Positions 7,647-26,353 of a stretch of 64,000 nucleotides of DNA are shown in pieces (the stretch's first letter is position 1; each line of letters starts with the position of its first letter). The translations under genes and the position numbers were made by a program. This stretch comes from Methanobrevibacter smithii ATCC 35061 (GTDB lineage Archaea > Methanobacteriota > Methanobacteria > Methanobacteriales > Methanobacteriaceae): the NCBI RefSeq assembly GCF_000016525.1, contig NC_009515.1, positions 832,501 to 896,500 on the forward strand, read 5' to 3'. The notes beneath the pieces were generated by a model. The model was not told where the DNA came from. It did not search any database and was given only the letters and a program-made list of their open reading frames with translations.

Positions 7647-9962
7647 TTATTCTTCGTTTAATTTTCTGCGTTTGTATCCAACAAATATTAACAAAGCAAC
7701 GATTATAATTAATATAATAGAAGCAATAATTGTATTCGGATTACTTTTCATTATATTTTTATCAATTTCATATGCTTTTACAGATTTGGAGTCATCACCT
7801 GCAGAACTTCCAGCACTTTTTGCATTTGATCCTGAAGAGGATTTTGTGCTACTTGCTGGAGATGGATTTCCGTCAAGGCTTGGACTGTCACTAGATGAAG
7901 TACTGCTATTTGTACGAACAGTTCCACCATATGAATTGGATCTTGAGTCTCCAGTGTCTGTATTTGAATTCAAGAAATTAATCAAAGCATCAAGTAAACT
8001 TACACCTAATTTGTTAGAATTTTTATCTGTACTACTAGTGCCGTTAGACGGATTTTTTGATCCTCCATCATCACCAGATAAATCAGGGACATCCACATAA
8101 CCTGCATCACCGTCAGGTCTATCTGGAACATTTGGATTTTTATCATCACCATCGTCAGGAGTTACAATAACACTACTTCCGTCACCAGGTTTAGGAAGTA
8201 AAGGATTTCTATTAGGGAAATCAGGGAACCATGGTTTTATTTTTGAACCATCAACCTTATTTGTCAAATTGTTCACATTGGTAGGAGTCGTATAATTAAA
8301 TTCAGAACCTCCGTCAACATGATTGTAAATTTCCGCATAATAATCAAATGCATTGACTACACGATTATTATAATATGAAGTATTATAAAATTTTCCTTTC
8401 GTATTGAATGCATCATAACTGGCTTTCGCATCTTTCCTAGTAGATATTAATAAATTATCAACAATAACCGAATTCTCAGCACTTATTAGAGAAATCGCAT
8501 ATTTTGCATCACTAGTAACTGTATTATTTTTAATTACAAATGTATGGTTACCTTTAGTTGATTGAGAATAACTTATACCGTACATATTGTCATTGTCCTT
8601 AACTTCCGCAACACTATGAACTTCAATTGTATTATTAATAATAGTATCGTTAGAATCCTGAACTTCTATACCTGCAACAAGTGCCCAGCTATCATTACCT
8701 GCCAATCCTGTCACGTTAATCTTATTATGAGCAATATACAATTGTGTATCACCATAATAATTTTGTGAATAGATTCCTATGTTTGGCCCGTTAGATATTG
8801 AATACAAATCATTATTAGTTATATTTATCTTCTTAGAAGGTCCGGTAATTTGTATAGGGTATGCAGTACCGGCAGATAACATTCCGCCAGTAGTTAAAAT
8901 AGCTATATTATTAGAATCTAATGTCAAACTATTTACACGCCATACATCAATACCATAAAGATAATTATTAAGACCTGGGAAAGTTAAGAAATCTTCCATA
9001 TACAAAGTATTGTTTTTAACAAGACAATCATTTGAATCGGCAATAATTATACCGTCCAATGTAGGGAAAGGACTTCCTGGCCTTTTATTAACAATACTTG
9101 CAACAATATTTCCGATAAATGTTAAATTATTACTGTACTCAATACCTACACTTGCCACATAATTAGAATTTAAATCAGCTCCAACTGCTCCGAAATTAAC
9201 ATCCCTCAACGGAAGCTGAGTATAAATACTGTTATTTGCAATTAATGCATTAGGACAGTTACTTACTTTTAAAGCATAATTATAGGTATTTGCCTTATAA
9301 TTATGGCCTTCAAAGTTGATTATACAGTTAATAACTTCCAAACCACTAATTGGAGCAATTCTTCTTCCAACTGCAGAAATGCCGTAACCTTCACTATCAC
9401 GAGGAACATTATAATTTATAACACAATCACGTATATGCGTATTATTGGCCAATGTAAGAATTGCCGCACCATCAGCATCTTTGAAATCAAAATCATTAAC
9501 TAATGTGAAATTAGCTAAGGTAACATCTTTACCATTAATCAAAAATGCAACATTTTGCAAAGTAAAATTATTACCTAAAATAGTTACATTATTTGCTTCA
9601 ATTTTTAAAAGACCTAAATTATCAAAGTTTTGAGTTAATACAAATTTGGTATTAGAATGCTCAACCCCCAAAGTACCGTCAACAAAATATTCATCGATGT
9701 TAAATATGGTCAAATTAACTGTATCAGAATCATTTTGATCATCAATGTCCGGATTATCAGGATCAACTGGAAAATCCGGAATATCTGGAATGTCAGGCAC
9801 ATCTGGAACTTCTGGTGCATCACCAACAATTATAATATTAGGCACAGTAGTATTTTCACCTAATGTTGATAAATCATTTGCAGAAACGCATCCCATAATC
9901 ACGAAAAATAACATTAACAAAGATGTAATTATTATTTTTCGACTTAATTTAATCTTTTTCAC
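7647..9962 (-). CDS. Adhesin-like surface protein with beta-helix and C-terminal membrane anchor
   Basis: Predicted cell-surface protein of 771 residues. An N-terminal signal peptide (about 1-28) is followed by an acidic PD-rich segment (49-80), then a long region rich in N-N-x-I/V and hydrophobic-N motifs that reads as a right-handed parallel beta-helix (about 90-560), an acidic PD/G linker, a Ser/Asn-rich stalk (about 640-735) and one transmembrane helix (about 743-763) ending KRRKLNEE. This is the architecture of Methanobrevibacter adhesin-like proteins, which protrude through the pseudomurein wall. Ligand unknown. The cysteine in the signal peptide (VIMGC) has a poor lipobox, and the C-terminal helix makes lipid anchoring unlikely. 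Confidence 0.88.
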   Translation of the reverse strand: MKKIKLSRKIIITSLLMLFFVIMGCVSANDLSTLGENTTVPNIIIVGDAPEVPDVPDIPDIPDFPVDPDNPDIDDQNDSDTVNLTIFNIDEYFVDGTLGVEHSNTKFVLTQNFDNLGLLKIEANNVTILGNNFTLQNVAFLINGKDVTLANFTLVNDFDFKDADGAAILTLANNTHIRDCVINYNVPRDSEGYGISAVGRRIAPISGLEVINCIINFEGHNYKANTYNYALKVSNCPNALIANNSIYTQLPLRDVNFGAVGADLNSNYVASVGIEYSNNLTFIGNIVASIVNKRPGSPFPTLDGIIIADSNDCLVKNNTLYMEDFLTFPGLNNYLYGIDVWRVNSLTLDSNNIAILTTGGMLSAGTAYPIQITGPSKKINITNNDLYSISNGPNIGIYSQNYYGDTQLYIAHNKINVTGLAGNDSWALVAGIEVQDSNDTIINNTIEVHSVAEVKDNDNMYGISYSQSTKGNHTFVIKNNTVTSDAKYAISLISAENSVIVDNLLISTRKDAKASYDAFNTKGKFYNTSYYNNRVVNAFDYYAEIYNHVDGGSEFNYTTPTNVNNLTNKVDGSKIKPWFPDFPNRNPLLPKPGDGSSVIVTPDDGDDKNPNVPDRPDGDAGYVDVPDLSGDDGGSKNPSNGTSSTDKNSNKLGVSLLDALINFLNSNTDTGDSRSNSYGGTVRTNSSTSSSDSPSLDGNPSPASSTKSSSGSNAKSAGSSAGDDSKSVKAYEIDKNIMKSNPNTIIASIILIIIVALLIFVGYKRRKLNEE
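9723..9818 (-). repeat. PD-rich low-complexity segment in the first adhesin gene
   Basis: Codons 49-80 of the 771-residue adhesin encode a run of V/I-P-D units with extra D and N, from near-identical short DNA repeats. Such a segment could act as a spacer or bind cations and is prone to length change. Confidence 0.7.
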
Positions 9963-10103
9963 CTCTTTTTAGTTTTAATAAAATCTTTTAAAACTAAAAT
10001 AAGTCATTTTATAAGATTAAAAAAAACTTATTTAAAGTTCAAACTAAAAGACAATTAAGTATATGTAAAAAATAGTTTATATATTTATCCTTAAAATAAA
10101 ATC

Positions 10104-10131
10104 AAAAGAGATTAATTGAATAATCTCTTTT
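10104..10131 (-). terminator. Hairpin terminator after the large adhesin gene
   Basis: Perfect 11-bp stem (10104-10114 with 10121-10131) and a 6-nt loop, directly next to the stop codon of the adhesin gene at 10132. T-rich sequence follows on the transcribed strand. Confidence 0.65.
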
Positions 10132-11150
10132 TTAAAATATTCGTATTGTGTTTCCTGTTTGGAAATTGTTCCAGCAGGAAGTTATGATGTATTCTCCATG
10201 CATCAATCTAATGTTTAATTTGGCCATACCGTTATTGTCTGTGACTTTATAGTAAAATACTCCGTTTACATTAAATGATACGTTTTGGTTAGCCAGTGGT
10301 TTTCCCTGACCGTCTAATGTCTGTGCAGTAAAGCTGCTTCCGTCCAGGTATTTCATGTTCAAGTTTTTAGTAACCAATGTAGGCAATACACTGACTTTGT
10401 TTCCAATAACCAATCCGTCAAACATAGTTGTAATGATATATTCTCCAGGCCTTAGAGATATTCCCAGACTTGCAACACCATTACTGTCAGTTGTCCTGTG
10501 ATAAAACACACCATTGATGTTAAAAGTCACTTCCTTATTTACAGCCAAGCTCCCATCCTTGTTATAAATGGTTGCTTCAAATCTTGAAGCATTTAAATAG
10601 TACTTGGTTAAATCCTTTTGAACAATCAATGAGTTTACAGTAATAATATTGCTTGATTGCTCACCTGTAACAAGATTTATCACAGTTATAACATACTTGC
10701 CAGGATTTAAGTTAATGCCCATCATAGCTATTCCCTTATCGTTGGTGGTTTTGGTGTAAAAGACACCATTGATATTGAACTGAACGTTTTTGTTTTTAAG
10801 GAAATTACCATGAGAATCAGTAAATATTGCATAATATTGTGTGCTGTTTCTAAACATTTTAACAACATCCAATCCTTTAACAGTTGGTTCAATAGTGACA
10901 TTTGCATGCTTGGTTATTGGAGTATAGTTTAATAATCCTTTAAATTTAACAACAACAGAATATATTCCACTGTCCAGATTCAAACCCAAACTCACACTAC
11001 CTTTCTCATCAGTTATCTTATCATAACTTCTTCCATTGATAATTATTTCAATTGCAGCACCACCAATAGGATTTCCCTGTTTGTCTGTTAGGGTTGCTAC
11101 AAATCTGGTGCCGTCATGATAAATCATTTTAACATCAGGAGCATTTAAAA
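10132..11150 (-). repeat. Four C-terminal NGVFY-type repeats in the giant adhesin
   Basis: About four copies of an 80-87 residue unit end the adhesin. The last three share the core F-N-(I/V)-NGVFY followed by TxDxxGxAxLxI; the first has NGRSYDKITDEKGS instead. A related single unit with NGTTYKVTTNNAGKAS occurs earlier in the protein. Boundaries are approximate. Confidence 0.7.
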
Positions 11151-14100
11151 TAACATTGTAATCAACAGGCAGGACTTCAAAAACACCAGTATCTACAGCT
11201 CGAGAAATTTTATCAGTTCCTTTATAAGTTGCAGAATATGTGTATTTACCAACTGAAGGTTTTTCAATGCTTCTTACACCAATTCCGTCAACTACAACGA
11301 TTTTATAAAATTTAGTGTTAATTTCCAAAGTTACATTGCCTGTAATCAGCTGACCGTCCAGAGTTTTAAGAATTGCAGTAACTACCATGTCATCTTCATA
11401 TACTTCAACATTTACCTTCAAAACACTTACAGTTTGATTTACTGAAATAACCATAGTTGTATTTGAGCTTAAATAGTTATTATCACCATTATATGTAGCC
11501 ACAACAACATATGAACCACTATTTAAAGGTGAAATAAGCCATGACGCATTGCCTCCAACAATAGTCTTATTTCTTGGTGAATATAATCCCAAAATCCTGA
11601 AAGTAACATTTCCAGTTGCATCATCATTTACAACAGCCCAAATCCTAACATTTTTATTAAATTCTATTTCACCAGTGATAATTTCAATATTTGAATTAGC
11701 TTTGGCTACATCAAATGATTTTTCATCAGATGATTTGGAATAAACAGAATTTCCCAAATAATCTGCCCTAACACTATAAGTTCCTGCATTTAACTTATTA
11801 AAAGTAGCTATTGCTTTGCCGTTTATAATTTCTACTGTTTTAGTTAAATTTCCAAGGATAAAAGTAACATTACCCGTTGCTCCAGAGGTTACACTGGCCA
11901 GTACAGTTATATTTTCACCATAAACAGTATTGTTTACATCAATGACAGTTTCTGAAAGTGAATTTTTAATATTGAATGTCATGTCGGCAGTACTGCTGTT
12001 GTAATTAGCATCTCCAGAATACATTACTTTTAAACTATGATTTCCTAAAGTCAAATCAGGAATTGCAATTGCAGCTATTCCATTATTAAGTGTTTTTGTA
12101 TATGTTGTTCCATCTACAATAAATGTAATTTCTCCTGTTGCATCATTTGGAAGAGTTACTGTAATTACTTCATCCTGTCCTGCGAGAACATCCTTAATGT
12201 CCACATCTAATTTTGGAGTGCCTTTGGATACTGTGAATGTAGCTGTTTTTGATAGTTTGGAATTATAAACAGCTTCTACAGTATAAGTACCCAGTTTTAA
12301 TCCGCTCAAACTATATCTGGCATTTCCTGAGATTACATCAACAGTTTTGTTTAAATGATTTTTAATTATAAATGTAACAGTTCCGTTAATTAAAGCATTG
12401 AAATTAGCATTGATAATTGCATTTTCACCATATCCTATATCAGCTACTGTTAAATTAAAATCAAGAGGTTTGACTGTAATGGTGTTGTATACTGTTGTAT
12501 AATCATATGTAGCAGATATTGTGTAATTTCCGGAAGTCAGATTGAGAGGAAGTGAAGCCTTACCTGCATTATTTGTAGTTACCTTATATGTTGTGCCGTT
12601 AACTTCAATTAAAACAATCACATAAGTAAAGGGATTTCCGTCCAGATCAGTTACTTTAACTGTGTATTTGGATCCGTCTTCTTCAACCATTATAATGTCC
12701 TCACCGGTTAAGATACATTTTGCAGATATATTTACCGTTGTATTCCATGACGCATCATCATAATAGCTATCTCCAGGATAGTATACATAAACATAATTAG
12801 TTCCTTTTGTAAAGTTAACAGAAACATTAGCTATTCCATTAACCAGCTTTGCCTGATAAAGTACATTATTTACATAAACTCCAATAAGACCAGTACAATT
12901 ACCCGGGTTTGTTTTTATATTGACAATACCTGTAAGGTCATCATTTTGAATAACATCAACAGTCAAATTGCAGCTTTCTTTTAAAACCACAAATGACGTT
13001 GATGCCGTTGAACCGGCATATTTATTGTCACCAGGATAAATGACAGTTACATCATATTTTCCGCCGGTTAAATTATGGAGTGTAATCTCAGTTATTTCAT
13101 CTTTTAAAAATATTTTGCTTTCAACACCATTTATAATAAGTGTTGCTTCCCCTTTAACATCTTTAGGGTTTATTTTAATAGTTATTGTTGCATTTTCACC
13201 TGCTTTAACATCACTGGCATTAACACTCAGATTTGTATCATATTTATTTACTTTCAATAATCCGCTGACTGAAGCCATTTCATAAAGCTGTTCATCAAGT
13301 TCACTGCCCCATGTTTCAATTGTAATGTTGTACACGCCAGCTCCACCATAATTTCTAATTGTAACCTGAATATCCTCCTTATTTATAACAATCATCTGTA
13401 CACGTTTACCGTTAATACTTAAATATGCATAAATTTGAACTCCTTTAGGAGATGTATGTATATTGACCTTTGCAATTTCCCCAACATTAATTTCAGGAAT
13501 TGAAATGTTTAAATTAATAGGGCATTTATTTACTGTGACAGTTTTATGAACAAATGATCTGAAATATTCGTCATTTCCCATATAAACAAGATTTAATGTA
13601 TGATTTCCGGCAAGCAAATCAGGTATGTTAAAAGTTGCCTTACCATTGACTAAGTTTTCAGTGTATGTTTTTCCACCAATTATAAGTGAAACATTTCCTT
13701 CAGGCAAAATTGAATCTATGCCATTTACGGCTACATCAACAACAAGAGTTTCAGTATAATTGATGTCATTGACACTTACAGTCATATTTGATACAAGTTT
13801 ACCTACATCAACCAATACTTTTTGAGTAAAATTCCTTAAACTGATTGAAACTTCATAACTTCCTTTCTTTTGAGTCCAGTTATAGCTTATAACAGCGCTT
13901 CCATTATCCAGTTTTTTGGTTATTGTCTGTGCAGTTCCATTAACCCATGTATTAAATGAAACATCAAAAATAGGGAATAAACTAATATCAACAGGCTTTC
14001 CACTGCTTGATTTCCAAATAGCTGAAATATCAGTTGACTCGTTTATATTAAGAGCACTGTATTCCGGAGACCCTACCAACATCAGCCAGGAATTTACTTT

Positions 14101-15324
14101 ATCAACATTGGATTTGTTCACCGGCTTTTTATTGGATCCCCACCAATTATTGTCCAGACAAATGTTTTCACCACCGTCTGCAAAGAAATCAGCATAACTT
14201 TCAGCCAGCGGCTTGTTATTTAAAAATGCAGAATAGCTTATGTCTATTTCCCCTACAGTGTAAATATTGACAGTACCTTTATAAACAGGAATAGCACTAT
14301 CTTTTATACCTCCATTATTTGCAAAAATACATCCAACAGCTTTTAAACTACCTTCATTATAAATAACACCATAAAGAGTATTGAATAAAGCTCTAGTTAC
14401 AAAAGAATCCTTAATAGTAGAATTTATCATAGTACAATTTCCGGAATTAAAAAGAACTGCTCCCTTAACCTGCTGAGCAGTACTACTACCAGACATTACA
14501 ACTCTGGTTAATGTTAAATTACCATTATTAGAAATTGATCCTCCGAATGCAAAGTCTCCAACATATGAACCCTTAAATGTGGAATCAAAGATTTTTAAAG
14601 TACCATTATTGTAAACATCACTTCCATGCGCAGAATTACGTGCTTCAGAAGTCATTGAATTACTGTTGAATCTGGAATTAATAATTGTCATATTACCAGA
14701 ATTACTAATGGCTGCTCCGTAATTGTCCTTACTTATAGATGAAGTATGTTCAATACGGTTATTGTTAAATGCACAATTGCTAATAAAGACTGTTGCTTTT
14801 TTAACATCCAACACTGCACCATATACGCTTTTCTGGTCATAATAAAGATCCGCTTTTTTAAATGCATTAATAAAAGTTATATTGCTAATACTGACAGTTA
14901 CACCATCGGAAATTGTAAAAAAATAGTTTTTGTTTAATCCGTCAAATACAGTGTTAACAGAACCTACAATATTTACAGACTTGGCTATATTAATTTTTGA
15001 ATTTGCAGAACCGCTGTATGTTCCATTATCTATGTAAATCGTAGTATTGTCTTTAGCTAAATATATTGCCCAATCCAATGAGTTAGTGGCACTGCCCCAT
15101 GAAGTAGCATTAGCATAGCTATTACCATTTACACTAACATAAAGACAATCGCCGTTATTTTCCTCGCCAACTGCATGGTTATTATTAATTTCACCAATTA
15201 CAGGATCACCCTGAAAATCATCAAGTGTATCATTAGTTAAATCGGCAGCACTGACACTAGCCAAACCCAGCAAACTGCATAAAATCAATATTAATACAGC
15301 AGTTAACAACCTACCATGTTTCAA
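10132..15324 (-). CDS. Giant adhesin-like protein with beta-helix and tandem Ig-like repeats
   Basis: Predicted secreted protein of 1730 residues. A signal peptide (about 1-27) leads into a beta-helical region with N-S-G-N and N-N-G-x-L motifs (about 60-400). From about 520 to 1350 there are tandem bacterial Ig-like repeats carrying motifs such as GNHSLKVMYSGDANYNSS and ATGNVTF. The end (about 1395-1730) is built of four related repeats with the core NGVFYxKxTDxxGxA. No C-terminal membrane helix is seen, unlike the neighbouring adhesin, so it is either held by wall interactions of the repeats or released. Sister adhesin lies downstream on the same strand, separated by a hairpin. Binding partner unknown. 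Confidence 0.88.
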   Translation of the reverse strand: MKHGRLLTAVLILILCSLLGLASVSAADLTNDTLDDFQGDPVIGEINNNHAVGEENNGDCLYVSVNGNSYANATSWGSATNSLDWAIYLAKDNTTIYIDNGTYSGSANSKINIAKSVNIVGSVNTVFDGLNKNYFFTISDGVTVSISNITFINAFKKADLYYDQKSVYGAVLDVKKATVFISNCAFNNNRIEHTSSISKDNYGAAISNSGNMTIINSRFNSNSMTSEARNSAHGSDVYNNGTLKIFDSTFKGSYVGDFAFGGSISNNGNLTLTRVVMSGSSTAQQVKGAVLFNSGNCTMINSTIKDSFVTRALFNTLYGVIYNEGSLKAVGCIFANNGGIKDSAIPVYKGTVNIYTVGEIDISYSAFLNNKPLAESYADFFADGGENICLDNNWWGSNKKPVNKSNVDKVNSWLMLVGSPEYSALNINESTDISAIWKSSSGKPVDISLFPIFDVSFNTWVNGTAQTITKKLDNGSAVISYNWTQKKGSYEVSISLRNFTQKVLVDVGKLVSNMTVSVNDINYTETLVVDVAVNGIDSILPEGNVSLIIGGKTYTENLVNGKATFNIPDLLAGNHTLNLVYMGNDEYFRSFVHKTVTVNKCPINLNISIPEINVGEIAKVNIHTSPKGVQIYAYLSINGKRVQMIVINKEDIQVTIRNYGGAGVYNITIETWGSELDEQLYEMASVSGLLKVNKYDTNLSVNASDVKAGENATITIKINPKDVKGEATLIINGVESKIFLKDEITEITLHNLTGGKYDVTVIYPGDNKYAGSTASTSFVVLKESCNLTVDVIQNDDLTGIVNIKTNPGNCTGLIGVYVNNVLYQAKLVNGIANVSVNFTKGTNYVYVYYPGDSYYDDASWNTTVNISAKCILTGEDIIMVEEDGSKYTVKVTDLDGNPFTYVIVLIEVNGTTYKVTTNNAGKASLPLNLTSGNYTISATYDYTTVYNTITVKPLDFNLTVADIGYGENAIINANFNALINGTVTFIIKNHLNKTVDVISGNARYSLSGLKLGTYTVEAVYNSKLSKTATFTVSKGTPKLDVDIKDVLAGQDEVITVTLPNDATGEITFIVDGTTYTKTLNNGIAAIAIPDLTLGNHSLKVMYSGDANYNSSTADMTFNIKNSLSETVIDVNNTVYGENITVLASVTSGATGNVTFILGNLTKTVEIINGKAIATFNKLNAGTYSVRADYLGNSVYSKSSDEKSFDVAKANSNIEIITGEIEFNKNVRIWAVVNDDATGNVTFRILGLYSPRNKTIVGGNASWLISPLNSGSYVVVATYNGDNNYLSSNTTMVISVNQTVSVLKVNVEVYEDDMVVTAILKTLDGQLITGNVTLEINTKFYKIVVVDGIGVRSIEKPSVGKYTYSATYKGTDKISRAVDTGVFEVLPVDYNVILNAPDVKMIYHDGTRFVATLTDKQGNPIGGAAIEIIINGRSYDKITDEKGSVSLGLNLDSGIYSVVVKFKGLLNYTPITKHANVTIEPTVKGLDVVKMFRNSTQYYAIFTDSHGNFLKNKNVQFNINGVFYTKTTNDKGIAMMGINLNPGKYVITVINLVTGEQSSNIITVNSLIVQKDLTKYYLNASRFEATIYNKDGSLAVNKEVTFNINGVFYHRTTDSNGVASLGISLRPGEYIITTMFDGLVIGNKVSVLPTLVTKNLNMKYLDGSSFTAQTLDGQGKPLANQNVSFNVNGVFYYKVTDNNGMAKLNIRLMHGEYIITSCWNNFQTGNTIRIF

Positions 15325-15701: not shown

Positions 15702-15734
15702 AAGTAATGAAATTATACAGTTTAAACATTACTT
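15702..15734 (-). terminator. Hairpin around the stop codon of the small secreted protein gene
   Basis: Eight-bp stem AAGTAATG/CATTACTT (15702-15709 and 15727-15734). The stop codon at 15722-15724 lies in the 17-nt loop, and a T-rich tract follows on the transcribed strand. Confidence 0.5.
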
Positions 15735-16192
15735 GTATCAATAGATTTAATTATAATATTTACAGGATTGTCACTATTGGAAACATCCCAATCGGATGGA
15801 TCATTTGCGGCACAAACAATATAACTGGAACCATCTACTTCACAAACATACCCATATATTGGCATACCGTCTTTATCATAAGCTTGCTCAAATACTTTTA
15901 TATCACCGAATCCGGAAACATCTTTTTGACTTTTGAAAGTGTAACCTTTTGATTCAAGAGTTTTTTTTGCATCATCAGGACTTTTAGCATCACTAGCTAA
16001 AACAATAATTGCAAGATCATCTTTAACTAAAGCAGTATTCCCGTCACCATCATCTTGAACTGTAAAACCGTCAGGAACTGTAAAAGTTGCCCCGTCAGGT
16101 AAAGTAAGATCTTCAGCAGCCACCATACCTACAGTAATTGCAGCTACAACACACAAAAGCAATGCAACCACTATTTTTGAATTTAACTTCAT
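15722..16192 (-). CDS. Small exported protein of unknown function
   Basis: I do not recognise a named family. The 156-residue protein has a clear signal peptide (about 1-26, ending GMVAAED) and no other membrane segment. The mature part of about 130 residues starts LTLPDGATFTVPDGF and has a pattern of hydrophobic strands and acidic turns, with two cysteines late in the chain (YVCEVDG and YIVCAAN) that could form a disulfide. It lies between the stress protein and the giant adhesin, all on the minus strand but separated by terminator hairpins, so it is probably transcribed alone. A cell-surface or pseudo-periplasmic role is likely from the signal peptide only. Confidence 0.75.
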   Translation of the reverse strand: MKLNSKIVVALLLCVVAAITVGMVAAEDLTLPDGATFTVPDGFTVQDDGDGNTALVKDDLAIIVLASDAKSPDDAKKTLESKGYTFKSQKDVSGFGDIKVFEQAYDKDGMPIYGYVCEVDGSSYIVCAANDPSDWDVSNSDNPVNIIIKSIDTSNV

Positions 16193-26108: not shown

Positions 26109-26119
26109 ATTAAAAAGAA

Positions 26120-26202
26120 CGCCGAGACTGGGATTTGAACCCAGGCGGAGAAACTCCACAGGATTTCAAGTCCTGCGCCTTACCAGACTAGACTATCTCG
26201 GC
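26120..26202 (-). tRNA. tRNA-Ser (anticodon TGA), copy 1
   Basis: Folds as a type II tRNA: 7-bp acceptor stem GCCGAGA/TCTCGGC, long variable arm, anticodon loop CTTGAAA, T-arm GGGTTCAAATCCC and discriminator G. CCA is not encoded. Identical to the copy at 26258-26340. Confidence 0.95.
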
Positions 26203-26257
26203 AAAAAATACACTGTTAAAAAAATTAGAAAAAATATATAAAAAGTAAAAAAGATAA

Positions 26258-26340
26258 CGCCGAGACTGGGATTTGAACCCAGGCGGAGAAACTCCACAGG
26301 ATTTCAAGTCCTGCGCCTTACCAGACTAGACTATCTCGGC
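26258..26340 (-). tRNA. tRNA-Ser (anticodon TGA), copy 2
   Basis: Exact duplicate of the upstream tRNA-Ser, 138 bp apart start to start; identity extends to about 86 nt. Both copies are intact, so both are likely functional. They read in the same direction as S10 and come after it. Confidence 0.95.
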
Positions 26341-26353
26341 ATGATAACAGAAA

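Follow-up and report, generated by a model that had tools for sequence, protein, structure and literature searches.

Two adjoining genes of the human-gut methanogen Methanobrevibacter smithii ATCC 35061, which encode an adhesin-like protein with a C-terminal membrane helix (p1) and a longer one that lacks a membrane anchor and ends in four Ig-like repeats (p2), are one of several recurring anchored/anchorless gene pairs. They lie in a stretch of 64,000 nucleotides (positions 832,501 to 896,500 of NC_009515.1), hereafter the window. We give an even chance to the reading that p1 and p2 make up one of several units of two genes, with p1 held in the membrane and p2 held at the surface by its C-terminal module, likely a wall-binding one. 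The issue matters because adhesin-like proteins are reported to account for a large part of the genomes and vesicles of gut methanogens, and in the sources drawn on here their retention has so far been a matter of proposal only. An ordered, lineage-specific end common to about 22 M. smithii proteins amounts to one short, expressible fragment, and a recurring anchored/anchorless pair shows which two proteins to study together.

Two neighbours with different ends

The features of both proteins are collected in Table 1. The sequence-only reading had given p1 a terminal membrane helix and p2 four NGVFY-type repeats without an anchor, and both descriptions hold. In p1, the hydropathy peak covers residues 744-762 (Kyte-Doolittle 3.17, 19-residue window) and a signal peptide is found too; the C-terminal helix is also present in the AlphaFold2 model and is kept in 20 relatives. 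In the same model, residues 80-546 form blocks mostly of pLDDT 80-98, for which Foldseek returns beta-helix lyases and tailspikes. The Beta_helix family (PF13229) has no match in p1 and matches one of 20 aligned members; model and Foldseek matches support a predicted right-handed beta-helix. This domain is 37% identical to one within a 3684-residue protein whose end is the last repeat copy of the p2 type (the cap), and a related beta-helix passenger is found on either kind of C-terminal end. Exosortase-type sorting of the p1 tail was rejected, since PF09721, to which the archaeosortase check was limited, has no match in the source genome at E ≤ 0.001.

Table 1. Features of p1, p2 and the interval between them (positions in the window)
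Feature	Positions	Strand	Remarks
p1, 771-aa adhesin-like protein, GTG start	7647..9962	-	signal peptide, beta-helix, flexible linker, C-terminal membrane helix
p1 residues 80-546, beta-helix-like domain (modelled)	8325..9725	-	AlphaFold2 and Foldseek; p1 itself lacks a Pfam match
p1 residues 547-741, disordered linker	7740..8324	-	pLDDT <50 over 547-744
p1 residues 742-765, membrane helix, then basic tail GYKRRK	7668..7739	-	hydropathy and model
p2-p1 gap, 169 bp	9963..10131	-	hairpin-like inverted repeat, then Ts, then TATA-like box (by eye)
p2, 1730-aa anchorless adhesin-like protein, TTG start	10132..15324	-	Big_3_5 and Big_1-type domains
p2 signal peptide, residues 1-27, AxA-type site (VSA-A)	15244..15324	-
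p2 degenerate internal fifth repeat copy, residues 876-950	12475..12699	-	26 bits
p2 module domain -4, residues 1396-1480, NGRSY	10885..11139	-
p2 module domain -3, residues 1481-1565	10630..10884	-
p2 module domain -2, residues 1566-1648	10381..10629	-
p2 module domain -1 (C-terminal cap), residues 1649-1730	10135..10380	-	most conserved copy

The sole hydrophobic stretch of p2 is its signal peptide (2.69, residues 6-24). Its motifs start at residues 1430 (NGRSY), 1519, 1604 and 1687, the last three being literally NGVFY; they are spaced by 83-89 residues, and the last repeat runs up to the stop codon. The Big_1 family (PF02369) matches p2 with 55.6 bits and the module alone with 64.6 bits, the Pfam gathering cut-off being 34.9, and it matches all 49 modules compared at E ≤ 0.001. 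The pseudomurein-binding repeat family PMBR (PF09373) is matched by neither protein at E ≤ 0.1, an NCBIfam search yielded nothing, and the p2 end, ..NNFQTGNTIRIF, carries no LPxTG sortase signal and no C-terminal hydrophobic stretch. AlphaFold2, applied to the p2 module with 48 relatives, predicts four Ig-like domains (mean pLDDT 95.7). The structural matches of this model (Foldseek, VIA) are general Ig and macroglobulin folds, among them the Ig-like domains of invasin (1cwv, Z 9.9, rmsd 19.0 over 305); since they are many and have large rmsd, only the general fold is claimed for the module.

Just upstream of p2, at 15722-16192(-), the window encodes a 156-residue, secreted-looking protein without Pfam match, the counterpart of which in another genome (G042) has 159 residues and occupies the same place (L172:7748-8227). 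The window also holds a tandem pair of tRNA-Ser(TGA) genes at 26119-26341(-).

An ordered repeat module ends many adhesins

The p2 repeat is not a chance feature, as the source genome contains 136 matches to its last copy (E ≤ 1e-5). Around these matches 24 stretches were fetched, in which, window included, 34 open reading frames (ORFs) carry 143 repeat copies. Placement is strictly C-terminal in most carriers: the last copy lies 0-4 residues before the stop codon in 22 of the 34 ORFs and 16-22 residues before it in three. A check of whether other anchorless adhesins also end in the repeat had been proposed from the sequence, and it finds the same placement elsewhere. In named genome contigs 77 loci were obtained, every one titled Methanobrevibacter, with the best 80 of 368 matches kept; among these matches a strong cap lies within 8 residues of the stop in 107 of 121 closed repeat ORFs, a share that is enriched because the loci were picked by the cap. 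Four cap copies are non-terminal there (three followed by tails of 9, 105 and 162 residues, the fourth a surplus copy in a protein that is already among those counted), and a strong cap is absent from 11 of the 121. The order -4, -3, -2, -1 was recovered by model in 66 of the 107 cap-ended ORFs, again for the best 80 of 368 matches.

Together, the four copies make up an ordered module with position-specific conservation. When the four final copies in each of 24 repeat-ended proteins are labelled by position, the nearest relative is a copy at the same position in another protein for 86 of 93 copies, and mean identity between proteins reaches 62% for caps against 41% between a cap and its adjacent copy. 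Across 22 caps (the two divergent tailed ones excluded), the median synonymous difference is 0.65, near saturation, and the non-synonymous one 0.22, compared with non-synonymous values of 0.30-0.41 at the other positions; only one of 231 cap pairs looks recent. With synonymous sites near saturation, the cap is maintained by purifying selection and not by copying, and gene conversion as the cause of its conservation is ruled out.

In the remaining nine source-genome ORFs the repeats stand elsewhere, usually directly after the signal peptide, and in one protein they are found mid-protein. In two of the nine, PMBR repeats and a transglutaminase domain follow the N-terminal repeats; among ten other repeat proteins scanned, PMBR is present in two. 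Three more carriers are worth recording. In L043:3804-6983(+) (G000:1146803-1149982), which has no Pfam match, a block of four repeats adjoins the signal peptide and is followed by some 640 residues, and the N-terminal repeats of L039:5384-7246(+) and L048:4047-5930(+) precede C-terminal domains without Pfam name that by eye are metallopeptidase-like and contain a Cys-rich stretch, respectively.

These N-terminal copies bear on the possibility that a dedicated machinery reads the C-terminal domains for sorting, similar to the C-terminal domains of Bacteroidota type IX secretion (T9SS), with the tail-anchored neighbour perhaps as docking partner. Such a role agrees with the finding that most carriers have the repeats strictly at the C-terminus, with the lineage-specific type common to many proteins and with the conserved tail-anchored neighbour. 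Repeats directly after a signal peptide should, however, not occur with a C-terminal sorting signal, and no candidate machinery was identified, nor an exosortase by PF09721, so that we regard sorting as very improbable.

Conservation and cleavage sites likewise bear on a somewhat unlikely alternative, in which the four Ig-like domains sit at the distal end as the adhesive tip, binding bacteria, protozoa or host glycans, and the N-terminal hydrophobic segment is kept as the membrane anchor. Gupta and Seedorf (2024, PMC11532034) assign membrane anchoring to the N-terminal helix in most M. smithii adhesin-like proteins, and protozoa binding by M. ruminantium Mru_1499 is reported to require its first Big_1 domain (PMC9213418), so Ig repeats of the Big_1 superfamily can be the adhesive part, a point that also counts against wall binding; the invasin domains among the structural matches are in line with a tip as well. 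Against this, an AxA-type cleavage site is present in all 20 repeat-ended ORFs that have an h-region (four of the 24 lack one at the called start), which makes it more likely that the N-terminal helix is cleaved off than that it serves as anchor. Moreover, a tip that binds partners would be expected to diversify, whereas in some 20 proteins no other part of the module is as conserved as this end, and related beta-helix passengers occur with a repeat end or with a membrane helix.

Across the phylum, some match at E ≤ 1e-8 is found in 107 of 151 genomes, while a strong cap match (1e-26) is found in only 25 of them, 22 of these being among the 67 genomes of the own genus. The nearest relative comes from the same genome for 75 of 125 caps, where 17.6 would be expected (best 80 of 368 matches). 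Pseudomurein composition was considered as the cause of these lineage types and dropped, the word "ornithine" having 0 occurrences in PMC11915815. Viral carriers of the module were also sought in IMG/VR; among 107 pattern matches no tblastn relative was found and none was confirmed.

Recurrence of the anchored/anchorless pair

That the two neighbours may form a pair, as had been suggested from their sequences, is borne out by the gene neighbourhoods of their relatives. Relatives of p1 occur in 50 of the 67 genus genomes at E ≤ 1e-20 and largely represent one ortholog set. Neighbourhoods were read for 49 long relatives, short and partial matches being excluded; the first 20 were partly picked with giant neighbours in view and 29 further long matches were then added, and as five lie at contig edges, 44 are informative. 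A repeat-carrying, same-strand upstream neighbour within 500 bp is found for 35 of these 44 genes, or for 33 under a stricter rule with the repeats ending at most 10 residues from the stop, and is absent from nine (11 by the stricter rule). The same upstream test applied to repeat-ended genes generally gives 3/24 in the source genome and 18/62 in the named contigs (15 more being at edges). The difference from p1-like genes has a Fisher p of about 4e-6 or less under either rule, with the p1 loci not being independent events because the genomes are related.

A test independent of p1 combined a whole-genome beta-helix search with a test for a C-terminal helix in the regions fetched around repeat genes, and it yielded five further adhesins with a C-terminal membrane helix. 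Within these regions all six such beta-helix adhesins of the source genome, p1 included, directly adjoin a repeat-ended gene, with gaps of 253 (divergent), 169, 220, 113 and 400 (divergent) bases and one 4-base overlap; one of them has a directly adjacent 2114-aa frame as its repeat-ended partner. The overlapping genes, repeat-ended and membrane-helix-ended, are G000:C1:1629940-1633728(+) and 1633725-1639220(+) (L050), the repeat-ended partner being one of the two proteins with a 19-22-residue tail after the repeats; their overlap suggests translational coupling of that pair. For p1 and p2 themselves, the hairpin-like repeat, the Ts and the TATA-like box, which by eye stands about 115-125 bp before p1, do not imply co-transcription, and p1 seems to have its own promoter.

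Pairing also depends on the kind of membrane tail. In another species of the genus (G044), proteins with a C-terminal membrane helix were selected by their beta-helix; those with GYKR-like tails stand beside a repeat-ended gene in 3/3 cases and those with GNP-type tails in 0/6 (Fisher p 0.012), a fourth GYKR-like protein, which came to light only through the repeat-ended gene beside it, being uncounted. The large adhesins L226, L227, L229, L234, L236 and L238 of this genome have a GNP(L/I/F)-or-similar membrane tail and a basic end, and this GNP-type tail looks like a sorting signal.

This dependence speaks to a reading that we find decidedly unlikely, namely that the module is a folding or stability end-piece, or a stalk base, without specific ligand, that the adhesins are released or carried by vesicles, and that the gene pairs arose by duplication inside adhesin clusters. 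Stalks are commonly built of Big domains, the structural matches are generic, and adhesin-like proteins are reported as 46 of 229 shared vesicle proteins compared with 81 of 1904 in membrane fractions (PMC12134236), an enrichment that is unexpected for a purely wall-bound protein. Yet clustering of adhesins alone yields only the 3/24 and 18/62 given above, the partner kind matters, and position-specific conservation of all four domains exceeds the need of a generic stalk.

Retention at the surface and known systems

In the two-gene unit that we propose, both proteins would be exported via Sec with cleavable signal peptides, as their motifs suggest. Protein p1 would stay in the membrane by its C-terminal helix, its modelled beta-helix being held outwards on a flexible linker of about 200 residues, and p2 would be retained at the surface by its ordered module of four Ig-like domains, which would most likely bind pseudomurein or another wall glycopolymer non-covalently, its N-terminal domains presumably facing outward. 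Cleavage of the N-terminal helix would leave the repeat-ended proteins without membrane anchor, and the obvious candidate for retaining them is the conserved end that they share. The non-terminal repeats, which mostly follow the signal peptide and thus lie near one protein end, fit a base rather than a tip. The wall is a plausible ligand, and a link to it is provided by the two proteins with PMBR and transglutaminase domains; these same proteins, already having PMBR, would need no second wall binder, which counts against wall binding. The restriction of the strong cap to 25 of 151 genomes, the nine unpaired p1-like genes and the seemingly separate p1 promoter weigh against the proposed two-gene unit. 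The proteins p1 and p2 may act together; a more elaborate version, in which a per-lineage interchangeable attachment module ends dozens of adhesins per genome and each GYKR-tailed protein is the dedicated membrane-side partner of the adjoining repeat-ended adhesin in a two-part fibre or docking system, instead of the two being independent adhesins, appears unlikely.

All 49 modules match Big_1, and with its four modelled Ig-like domains the p2 module resembles Big_1, Big_3_5 (PF16640) and invasin; this common fold says nothing of the ligand. In T9SS, an Ig-like C-terminal domain is common to many unrelated secreted proteins; the likeness to the M. smithii module lies in this Ig-like end, and the difference in that the M. 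smithii repeat also occurs off the C-terminus. The classification of M. smithii adhesin-like proteins by archaeal Big domain (ABD) and membrane-anchoring domain of Gupta and Seedorf (PMC11532034) deals with the same proteome and recognizes Ig-like repeats and beta-helices; it differs in treating the N-terminal helix as anchor and has 0 occurrences of the terms "signal peptide" and "cell wall", and the portion of it used here mentions neither an ordered C-terminal module nor gene pairing.

The closest precedent is M1-C, the C-terminal ~200 residues of many M. ruminantium adhesin-like proteins (44 proteins, weak Big_1 homology), for which wall attachment was put forward in 2010 as a proposal only, in a species reported also to have adhesins with a C-terminal membrane helix (Leahy 2010, PMC2812497). 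Wall attachment has therefore already been proposed for a related module; apart from that report on M1-C, no earlier account of such a wall-binding end or of the conserved gene pairing was found in the literature searched, which mostly excluded subscription papers. In G024 (2.9 Mb, one contig), taken as M. ruminantium-like, many adhesin ORFs end in a two-repeat module closing with KLTIK or similar. With a model built from eight of these ends, G024 gives 46 matches of 201-317 bits, the source genome at best 98 bits (in a PMBR/transglutaminase protein) and p2 at best 76.7 bits; the agreement of 46 matches with the 44 M1-C proteins indicates that the G024 ends probably are M1-C, provided that G024 is M. 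ruminantium. Like M1-C, the p2 module belongs to the Big_1-like superfamily and occupies the very C-terminus of many adhesin-like proteins, but it consists of four ordered repeats of another sequence type, whereas the M1-C-type end has two repeats and about 185-200 residues. The M. smithii module is thus a counterpart of M1-C and not a member.
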